Source: Phycisphaerales bacterium (GTDB lineage: Bacteria; Planctomycetota; Phycisphaerae; Phycisphaerales; SM1A02). Taken from it: 39,277 nt of DNA. Positions 36,696 to 39,277 of this stretch are shown in pieces. Below the pieces are notes generated by a model. The model saw nothing but the letters and a program-made list of their open reading frames with translations. It did no database searches and had not been told where the DNA came from. The position numbers and the translations under genes were made by a program. Location: the NCBI GenBank assembly GCA_029245245.1, contig JAQWPT010000037.1:1-39277 (forward strand), read 5' to 3'. Position 1 is the stretch's first letter, and each line of letters starts with the position of its first letter.

Positions 36696-37457
36696 ATGGA
36701 CAATCGATACCAGACCATGCTCAGGGGCATGAACCTTCCGCGAGGGCTCCTCGCCGAGTTCATCGGAGTCTTCATGCTCATGTTCATCACCGGCGGCACG
36801 GTGGTGGTCACTGGTGGTGACAACCTCCTGGCGATCGCGCTGGCCAATGGCATGACCATCGCCCTGATGATCGCCGCCGTATTCCATATTTCCGGTGCCC
36901 AGTTCAACCCCGCGGTCTCGATCACCGTCACCCTGCTCGGCAAGCAGTCCTGGGGGCGATGCGGCCTGTTCGTGCTGGCCCAGTGCGCGGGGGCGACCCT
37001 GGCCGCGCTGCTGCTGGCCTGGATCATGATCGGCAACTGGGCGCTGCCGGTGCTGCCGACCGATCACGGCCCCATCGAACACGTGGGTCTGACCGTCGGC
37101 CTCTTCAGCGATCTGAGCACCATGCAGGATGTCACCGACAGCGCACTGCGAGTCGTCGCCCTGGAAGCAATTGCCGCCTTCTTCCTGATGTTCACCATCA
37201 TGGGAGTGATCGTCGACCAGCGCAGCGGCTTCGACAGTCCTGTGCTGATGGGACTGCCGGTGGGCATGGTCGTCGCGGTGGACGTACTGTGCTTCGGCCC
37301 CATGACCGGCGCATCGATGAATCCGGCCCGAAGCCTCGGACCGGCGATCGCGCTGGACTTCTGGCACATGCAGTGGGTGTACTGGGTCGGACCGATCATC
37401 GGCGCCGTTGCCGCCGGGCTGGTCTACCGGGCCACCTTCGGGCGACCGGAACACTAG
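36696..37457 (+). CDS. Aquaporin-like MIP-family channel
   Basis: Encodes 253 residues with six TM helices and two half-helices carrying the NPA motifs: N71-P-A in SGAQFNPAVS and N209-P-A in TGASMNPARS, with the pore Arg212 after the second. The N-terminal Glu in AEFIGVF is the family's pore-lining acid. It conducts water or small neutral solutes; the selectivity filter cannot be read reliably. AGGAGG lies 5 nt before ATG 36696; the frame is open from 36651. Confidence 0.93.
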   Translation: MDNRYQTMLRGMNLPRGLLAEFIGVFMLMFITGGTVVVTGGDNLLAIALANGMTIALMIAAVFHISGAQFNPAVSITVTLLGKQSWGRCGLFVLAQCAGATLAALLLAWIMIGNWALPVLPTDHGPIEHVGLTVGLFSDLSTMQDVTDSALRVVALEAIAAFFLMFTIMGVIVDQRSGFDSPVLMGLPVGMVVAVDVLCFGPMTGASMNPARSLGPAIALDFWHMQWVYWVGPIIGAVAAGLVYRATFGRPEH

Positions 37458-37466
37458 AAGCCAGGA

Positions 37467-37631
37467 TCATTTTCCACTGATTGCGTCACTCACATCGTAG
37501 ATCGCCCACATGATCTCCCACAATGCCGTGGCGATGCAGGTCAGCAGCAGCAGCTGGGCCAGGCCGTAGAGGTAGCACCAGATCTTGCAGTTGCCGGACG
37601 AAGAGCAGTGTGAGCCTTCGGAGTTTGACAT
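37467..37631 (-). CDS. 54-residue Cys-rich single-TM protein
   Basis: Starts MSNSEGSHCSSSGNCKIWCY and continues into one hydrophobic helix (about 19-44: LYGLAQLLLLTCIATALWEI...), ending YDVSDAISGK. Four Cys, three of them in the first 19 residues. GGGAG lies 7 nt before the ATG at 37631. It converges on the aquaporin gene with a 9-nt gap. Too short for standard gene finders; the SD site and TM helix support it. Function unknown. Confidence 0.55.
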   Translation of the reverse strand: MSNSEGSHCSSSGNCKIWCYLYGLAQLLLLTCIATALWEIMWAIYDVSDAISGK

Positions 37632-37739
37632 GTCGTGTCTCCCGTTGGGGTTGTGTTCAATGCAACCGGAAGATTCGTCATCGTCACAGACCCGTTCCCG
37701 GCATGATTTGCTGCATTTTCAATCCCACACCACACATTT

Positions 37740-37885
37740 GAGTACTGAATGCGTAGGAGGAAGTGAGCCGGTGTCGTGCCCATTCCGCCTGCCAGAGGCA
37801 CCCGGCCGCGATCCACACGAACGGGGCTCAGGCGAGGGCGTTGACCGGAGCTGAGGGGCTCCTGTCCGCCCTCGCCCATTTTTGG
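37740..37885 (+). ncRNA. Candidate structured RNA ending in an intrinsic terminator
   Basis: The 377-bp gap between the 54-residue gene and the carboxypeptidase has no coding frame. Nested pairing is possible: GAGCC (about 37765) with GGCTC (37825-37829), CCGG with CCGG, and GTGCC with GGCAC. The region ends in a terminator at 37831-37883. No upstream plus-strand gene is close enough to need this terminator (aquaporin ends at 37457). I cannot match it to 6S, SRP, RNase P or tmRNA. Boundaries are approximate. Confidence 0.35.
37831..37883 (+). terminator. Intrinsic terminator, 10-bp stem plus U-tract
   Basis: GGCGAGGGCG (37831-37840) and CGCCCTCGCC (37867-37876) pair perfectly; inside, GGAGC pairs with GCTCC. 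The stem is followed by CA and five T (37879-37883). This is the clearest plus-strand intrinsic terminator in the window. Confidence 0.65.
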
Positions 37886-38008
37886 CGTTCAGGGTGGTTT
37901 CCGGCCTCCTGGAAGTGAAAAATCCATGAAAGCGGGCCGGAATCGCCGGTAGGTGGTGTCATACTTGATGGAATCACACCTACCAGCCCTCTTGGAGAGA
38001 GAACCTCA

Positions 38009-39277
38009 ATGTCACTGCACCCCCTCCGCTGGACCACTGCCCTGCTGGCAACGGCCCTGAGCTCCACGGTCATCGCCACCGTAGACCACGAGCACGATCA
38101 CGCCCTCGAAGGAACCCGGATCATCGAGCTGACCGTCGACGACGTGCAGTTGATGAACATGCTGCTGGATGAGGGGCTTCGACCGATGGCCTGCCGGCCC
38201 GGTCCGGGAACCGATGCCTGGCTGGTCACCGACGAACAACTGGAGTTGGTGAGTCGACTGGGCATGCCCAGCCGCATGCTGGTGGAGGATGTCCCCGCGC
38301 ACGTGGAAGCAGAACGCAAGGCCTCCATGGCCCTCCGTGGTGGCGACTGGTACGCCAGTTACCACACCTGGGAGGAGATCAACACCCGCCTCGATCAACT
38401 CGTGGCCGCCCACCCCGGCCTGGTACATGCTCTGGATGTCGGCACGACGGTCGAGGGTCGCACCATCCAGGGAGTCCGCATCGGCACCGGTGAAGCCGGG
38501 GCCAAACCGGCCGTGCTCTTCAACGGGTGCCAGCACGCCCGGGAATGGGTCGCAACGATGGTCCCGACCTTCATTGCCGACGAACTGGCCGCCGGCTACG
38601 GTACCGACAGCCGCATCACTGCACTCCTGCAACTGGTGGACGTGTACATCGTGCCCGTGGTCAACCCCGACGGCTACATCCACACCTACGTCTCCGGTGG
38701 TGACCGCTACTGGCGCAAGAACCGCCGTGACAACGGCACCTCCTGTCGAGGCGTCGATCTCAACCGGAATTGGAACATCGACTGGAACGGCGGAGAAAGT
38801 ACCAGCACCGACACATGCAGCGACGTCTACGTCGGAAGCAGCCCGTTCTCGGAGCCCGAAACTTCGTCGATGCGCGACTTCATCCTCGCGCGACCGAACA
38901 TCGCCGCCCACATCGACTTTCACAGCTACTCGCAGCTGATCCTGCAGAACTGGGGATGGACGAATGTACCGGCGCCCGATGCCGAGGAAATCGACGACCT
39001 CGGCGGCGAGATGTCCGCCGCGATCTTCGCAGTCCATGGTGAAAGCTACCCGCATGGCGGCGGCGACGAACTGCTGTACCTTGCCAGTGGCGTGTTCCCG
39101 GACTGGACCTACGACGCCACGGGCGCCTTCGGCTACACGATCGAACTCCGCCCCACCGGCAGCCCGGGGTTTGAACTCCCCCCGGACCAGATCCGCCCCA
39201 CCGCGGAAGAGAACCTGCAGGCCGCCCTGGAAATGATGGAATGGGCCGGCGTCCCGATCAACGTGTCCTATCCCGAT
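38009..39277 (+). CDS. Secreted M14 zinc carboxypeptidase (cut by window end)
   Basis: Open to the window edge, 423 residues so far. Signal peptide about 1-22, then a propeptide-like region (VQLMNMLLDEGLRPMACRPG), then the M14 domain from about 110. Zinc ligands are H176-x-x-E179 in CQHAREW and His305 in DFHSYSQ; catalytic Glu379 is in YTIELRP; DLNRNWN is the substrate-binding Asn-Arg. It removes C-terminal residues from peptides outside the cytoplasm, carboxypeptidase A/T type. It probably continues into a C-terminal domain, perhaps a dockerin-like tail, beyond the window. GGAGAG lies 9 nt before ATG 38009. Confidence 0.9.
   Translation, partial: MSLHPLRWTTALLATALSSTVIATVDHEHDHALEGTRIIELTVDDVQLMNMLLDEGLRPMACRPGPGTDAWLVTDEQLELVSRLGMPSRMLVEDVPAHVEAERKASMALRGGDWYASYHTWEEINTRLDQLVAAHPGLVHALDVGTTVEGRTIQGVRIGTGEAGAKPAVLFNGCQHAREWVATMVPTFIADELAAGYGTDSRITALLQLVDVYIVPVVNPDGYIHTYVSGGDRYWRKNRRDNGTSCRGVDLNRNWNIDWNGGESTSTDTCSDVYVGSSPFSEPETSSMRDFILARPNIAAHIDFHSYSQLILQNWGWTNVPAPDAEEIDDLGGEMSAAIFAVHGESYPHGGGDELLYLASGVFPDWTYDATGAFGYTIELRPTGSPGFELPPDQIRPTAEENLQAALEMMEWAGVPINVSYPD

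Follow-up and report, generated by a model that had tools for sequence, protein, structure and literature searches.

A candidate small noncoding RNA with a conserved hairpin beside an M14 carboxypeptidase gene in Phycisphaerales

Introduction

Among described systems, bacterial small RNAs (sRNAs) with intrinsic terminators share several traits with the element reported here: it is intergenic, preceded by a promoter-like element, structured, about 105 to 180 nt long, narrow in range and, in five of the six genomes that carry it, ended by a hairpin and a U-run. It differs from that class in matching no Rfam family, in occurring in genomes in which Hfq was not detected and in having its core hairpin and its terminator as one element in one genus (g1) and as separate elements in another (g5). 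6S RNA, which is defined by one long hairpin interrupted by a central bubble, is likewise intergenic and of similar length, and its slot is vacant in these six genomes (RF00013 at an E value of ≤1: none of the six, compared with 6 of 14 control genomes); however, none of the six RNAs folds into that shape, and the RF00013 model does not match them. Attenuator leaders and riboswitches also place a terminator hairpin 5' of a gene on the same strand, but here terminator and gene are separated by a conserved promoter-like element, and the conserved core is the hairpin rather than an upstream aptamer. With CsrB/RsmZ-type RNAs, finally, the element shares the presence of CsrA in its hosts, whereas unpaired GGA motifs are few (0 to 2 per RNA).

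Closer to the organism, a table of PMC2864571 lists the Rhodopirellula-1 motif for Proteobacteria and Planctomycetes. Like our element, it is a candidate structured RNA in Planctomycetes, and its row in that table carries no Rfam number, so an Rfam search may not cover it. Small RNA records for the PVC group are scarce (a table of PMC9029176 holds eight), and a passage in PMC5673643 reports that another planctomycete has no 6S RNA. Here, we describe a hairpin in a Phycisphaerales genome that, as judged from its sequence context, would belong to an independently transcribed small noncoding RNA of the length given above, a reading to which we assign a probability of roughly two in three.

Results

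The window, i.e., the whole 39,277-nt stretch of DNA that was analysed, is contig C37 of a 2.69-Mb genome in 38 contigs (G000), whose M14 gene places it closest, among named genomes, to UBA3160, UBA854 and similar uncultured Phycisphaerales. Near its end, a gap of 377 bases separates the gene for a 54-amino-acid small protein (37467 to 37631, minus strand) from a divergently oriented M14 zinc carboxypeptidase gene (Pfam PF00246, E = 8.7e-84), which starts at 38009 on the plus strand and runs off the window at 39277. Inside this gap, on the plus strand, lies the core hairpin, HP1 (37831 to 37876; 20 stem positions), made up of a lower stem of 10 pairs (37831 to 37840 with 37867 to 37876), a UU bulge (37841 to 37842), an upper stem of nine pairs and one C·U mismatch (37843 to 37852 with 37857 to 37866) and a GAGG loop (37853 to 37856). 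After HP1 and a CA dinucleotide comes a TTTTT run (37879 to 37883), found 3' of the hairpin on the plus strand only, which together with HP1 forms a predicted intrinsic terminator in G000 and in its genus mate G002, not in the other listed mate, G001. These are the nested complementary arms and the terminator with five U residues that a sequence-only reading of this DNA had pointed out, and the distance of about 125 nt that it gave between terminator and M14 start was measured as 126 nt to the ATG at 38009.

At -36.1 kcal/mol, HP1 is the strongest hairpin at any of the eight TTTTT sites on both strands of the window, the next being -7.5 kcal/mol; a simple terminator scan of the window did not list it, presumably because of the bulge. 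With its flanks (37810 to 37890), it folded better than all of 200 dinucleotide shuffles (z = -3.37). The whole 146-nt interval (37740 to 37885) was less striking than the hairpin (z = -2.66, 2 of 200 shuffles equally good), and for the predicted transcript (37757 to 37885) the corresponding values were -2.29 and 4 of 200. The predicted small RNA itself extends from a promoter-like element to the U-run (37757 to 37883, plus strand; about 127 nt, with an approximate 5' end) and folds. Its 5' part (37757 to 37830) is variable, ending in CACGAACGGGGCUCA, common to G002, and AACGGGGC, shared also with G001; in the minimum free energy (MFE) fold of the window's RNA, this part is closed by pairing of UGAGCC with GGCUCA.

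A blastn search over 61 genomes found HP1 in both listed genus mates, with 87% identity over 70 bases in G002 (compared with 68 to 78% in the aligned neighbouring stretches) and 82% in G001. A covariance model built from these three g1 sequences (R1), searched over 181 genomes of the family, added exactly three genomes at an E value of ≤0.01, namely, G132, G006 and G133, all belonging to genus g5. Rebuilt from all six sequences (R2) and searched over the same 181 genomes, the model returned the same six, with one match each at an E value of 6.8e-11 or better and the next best match at 0.009. HP1 is thereby present in all three listed genomes of g1 and in 3 of the 3 available for g5.

In the alignment of these six sequences (A5, made with MAFFT without structure), 89.8% of the cells pair, and both sides change with pairing kept in 9 of the 20 pairs (13 cells). 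The covariation score was 0.403, compared with 0.274 in shuffles (reached by 0 of 500), and slid-partner controls scored at most 0.203; RNAalifold, run on the six sequences, arrived unprompted at the same 20 pairs. Some lower-stem pairs stay unmatched in A5 owing to a bulge in G133. Restricted to the three g1 sequences, the covariation test gave no convincing signal (37 of 500 shuffles equally good), and the G001 hairpin did not fold better than its shuffles (z = -1.03, 31 of 200 equally good). Across the six genomes, the lower stem diverges by compensation; the bulge starts with U throughout (UU, UA or UC), a GAUC stretch is kept in the upper stem of five (the window has GACC) and the loop is GAGG in five (G001 has UCAGGGGC). 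A conserved structured RNA at the locus is very probably real.

The order and class searches, run with Infernal's stricter filters as was the family search, produced little else. In the family, R2 gave 16 weak places (E values of 0.009 to 0.9) in 14 genomes; in a sample of 301 genomes from the order, it gave, in addition to four genomes already known to carry HP1, G345 (36.3 bits, E = 6.5e-5), G029 (E = 0.009) and six more at E values of 0.004 to 0.084; and among 397 genomes sampled from the class, only G000 and G002 were found at an E value of ≤0.001. We took the 23 distinct weak places as chance matches, that in G345 being the least certain rejection. The seven inspected (L079, L080 and L093 to L097) all overlap open frames of at least 150 codons, which is weak evidence only, given DNA so rich in G+C. 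Of 80 M14-bearing named loci, 54 were searched, leaving aside those of Bacteroidota, Fimbriimonadia and Vicinamibacteraceae, L147 and weaker planctomycete loci, and the only loci with HP1 were L099, L101 and L102, which correspond to G001, G006 and G132; in L101, a low-scoring match on the minus strand (E = 0.017) was its terminator hairpin, not HP1. A plasmid collection gave no match. For the RNA, no Rfam 15 family reached its gathering cutoff, the best subthreshold matches being mir-3622 (E = 2.6) and asX6 (E = 3.8), and the literature search found no description of it. The proposal of a new structured RNA, which the sequence-only reading had wished to see checked by an Rfam search and a comparative alignment, is supported by the compensatory changes, by the lack of an Rfam match and by a conserved promoter-like element 5' of the RNA. 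The RNA is a new, narrow, lineage-restricted family, ordinary in kind.

Although HP1 appears in all six single-sequence folds, its place in the RNA depends on the genus. In g1, HP1 closes the RNA, and the U-run comes behind it in G000 and G002; G001 has no U-run there, nor was a replacement terminator seen in its sequence, for which reason the 3' end of its RNA was set arbitrarily. In g5, two further hairpins come after HP1, the last being a long, unbroken terminator hairpin (14 pairs in G132, 14 in G006 and 16 in G133) with five or six U residues. A U-run thus follows a hairpin in every genome except G001, and the predicted RNAs, their 5' ends placed just 3' of the promoter-like element, measure 103 to 182 nt. 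Ending the RNA in g1 and lying inside it in g5, HP1 is more than a terminator. By eye, in G132 and G006 (L040 and L041), the second hairpin again holds GAUCG and a GGGGACA motif is repeated in the linkers between the RNA hairpins, as if HP1 were partly duplicated.

Upstream of the RNA, all six genomes carry CACA-N16-GC-N-TA with identical spacing; in the window, this putative promoter is CACAC-N14-TGCGTAG (37731 to 37756, plus strand). It is not a sigma-70 consensus, and a sigma-70 consensus scan of the window found none. In a pattern test on five genomes (G132 being too close to G006), it was the sole shared pattern of its form, in two overlapping forms, compared with 0 of 2,000 resampled sets, a figure that is optimistic because the test was devised after the element had been seen. 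A first, greedy test had been not significant (five invariant columns observed, also reached by 2 of 60 nulls) and had misplaced G132. Since the sequences are homologous, part of the agreement may reflect shared descent. A second element lies between terminator and M14 gene: TGYCATACT was found in 5 of the 5 genomes checked (G133 aside), with CATACT 49 to 74 nt before the ATG, and in the window the putative -10 element of M14 is TGTCATACTT (37957 to 37966, plus strand). In G006 and G132, GTGACA lies 17 nt 5' of CATACT (by eye).

That M14 seems to have its own conserved promoter-like element after the terminator favours separate transcription of the two. The sequence-only reading had left the choice between an independent RNA and an attenuated leader; the former is the better supported for the same reason. 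Were the RNA the attenuated 5' leader of M14, one transcript would start at 37757, and the terminator, perhaps together with an antiterminator fold, would decide whether M14 is read. Its position fits, the RNA lying on the same strand 5' of M14 in the four contiguous genomes and in a compatible arrangement, broken by contig ends, in the remaining two, as does a CGCCUG in the 5' part of the window's RNA that, by eye, is complementary to the CAGGCG at the terminator base. However, conservation is poor in the 5' part, where an antiterminator would have to lie, the U-run is missing from G001, and in g5 the terminator is a hairpin other than HP1; with the M14 element also against it, we consider the leader unlikely.

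Doubtful to a greater degree is that HP1 is a mere terminator or protein-binding hairpin with no RNA function of its own, e.g., the tail of some undetected transcript. The U-run in G000 and G002 agrees with this, but no plus-strand gene was seen ending just 5' of HP1: the nearest neighbour (37467 to 37631) is divergent, and the MIP gene beyond it ends at 37457. Moreover, the bulge and loop letters are conserved despite being unneeded for termination, and HP1 persists in genomes in which it is not the terminator.

The same sequence-only reading had seen no coding frame here, which holds in the sense that no plus-strand reading frame is kept across the six genomes. Taken literally, it does not, as a 51-amino-acid GTG open reading frame (ORF; 37763 to 37918, plus strand) and a 112-amino-acid ORF on the minus strand (37541 to 37879) mechanically overlap the RNA region. 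The frame of the former is interrupted by a stop in G002; in G132, G006 and G133, stops occur in all three plus-strand frames of the predicted RNA, and the 103-nt RNA of G001 has no stop in any of the three. With no plus-strand frame kept, the predicted RNA is, as far as its sequence indicates, not a peptide gene.

CsrA (PF02599) is encoded in all six genomes, twice in each of the four that are more complete, and some GGA motifs in the RNAs are unpaired, as a CsrA sponge like CsrB or RsmZ would need; yet the MFE folds of G000, G002, G001, G132, G006 and G133 leave only 1, 1, 0, 2, 1 and 0 of them unpaired, respectively, and the conserved loop, GAGGGG, contains no GGA, which makes such a sponge quite improbable. 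Hfq was detected in none of the six genomes (two of which are only 65 to 70% complete) and in 5 of 14 control genomes.

The order MIP gene, small protein gene (minus strand), RNA and M14 gene (plus strand) is contiguous in G000, G001, G006 and G132. The G002 contig stops 64 bases past the hairpin region, and an M14-bearing contig of UBA3160 (L098) starts with the same 24 bases; in G133, the RNA and M14 lie at contig ends whose orientation fits adjacency. The assemblies of two metagenome-assembled genomes thus break between RNA and M14 (at the ends of G002:C23, G133:C244 and G133:C177 and the start of L098), perhaps because of strong hairpins or strain variation. The 54-amino-acid protein has no Pfam match; it contains Cys and is hydrophobic, and it is likely, by its sequence, an unannotated small membrane protein. 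TCATCG-N16-GGCATGA (37678 to 37706, minus strand), which we take to be an ECF-like promoter type when read on that strand, precedes its gene in G000, G002 and G036, and a slightly altered form stands at that place in G177 (all by eye).

Systems such as tisB/istR and zorO/orzO pair small proteins with antitoxin-like antisense RNAs, and the small protein gene and the RNA do stand back to back in all six genomes; but the longest perfect complementarity was 7 to 9 nt in matched species and 6 to 9 nt in swapped ones, the mean duplex energy of -103.9 kcal/mol (matched) compared with -100.7 (swapped) is a small difference within the spread, only G002 standing out, and the protein has homologues at an E value of ≤0.001 in 39 of the family's 181 genomes, spread over 10 of 45 genera, compared with 6 genomes for the RNA (24 of the 33 small-protein loci without the RNA, inspected by eye, had no similar RNA alongside), so an antitoxin role is highly improbable.

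Pairing with M14 was also considered and rejected. The first codons of M14 contain complements to the loop, CCCCUC in G000 and GCCCCUC in G002 to GAGGGG and CCCCUG in G001 to the changed CAGGGG, which looked like covariation but proved to be near background: a duplex at least equally strong was found for 6 of 83 background genes in G000, 5 of 52 in G001, 2 of 43 in G002, 20 of 40 in G006 and 7 of 29 in G132, these genes being long ATG frames with start sites unchecked. Nor did the RNA as a whole behave as an antisense RNA to M14 (-86.1 kcal/mol matched versus -83.5 swapped; longest perfect complement, 7 to 9 nt versus 6 to 12 nt). Whole-RNA complementarity was computed by a crude duplex method.

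Discussion

If the RNA is independently transcribed, as we favour, transcription would start a few bases 3' of the CACA-N16-GCGTA element, run through the variable 5' part and then HP1 and, in the window, stop by intrinsic termination at the U-run directly after it. HP1 would be the functional module, its lower stem needing only to pair, as the covariation shows. Because the bulge, the GAUC stretch and the loop letters are kept while the lower stem varies, we infer that they may serve recognition by a protein or pairing of the G-rich loop (GAGG or GGGG) with a C-rich RNA. The RNA would most likely act by being recognized, by a protein or by a C-rich RNA from another place in the genome, at its fixed bulge, stem and loop, since a peptide, a known Rfam family, 6S RNA, CsrA sequestration and pairing with M14 or the small protein, all tested, were not supported. 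The module would double as the terminator in g1 and be internal in g5, where a separate hairpin would terminate. As Hfq was not detected in the six genomes, the RNA would presumably act without it. M14, with its own promoter-like element, would be a neighbour and a candidate target at most.

The G-rich loop of HP1 resembles a Shine-Dalgarno core. We offer as speculation, more likely wrong than right, a lineage-specific, Hfq-independent regulatory RNA of Planctomycetota in which a single conserved hairpin is both recognition site, through its fixed bulge, GAUC stretch and G-rich loop, and, in one genus, terminator, these roles being split in the related genus, and in which the loop acts on C-rich mRNA starts or on an RNA-binding protein.

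With few small RNAs on record for the PVC group and no Hfq found in these genomes, a conserved sRNA here would offer an entry point to RNA regulation in a phylum in which the subject has received little attention. Narrow as the family is, the RNA may be used as a marker of such regulation, and its hairpin, which closes the RNA in g1 and sits within it in g5, would make a neat natural experiment.
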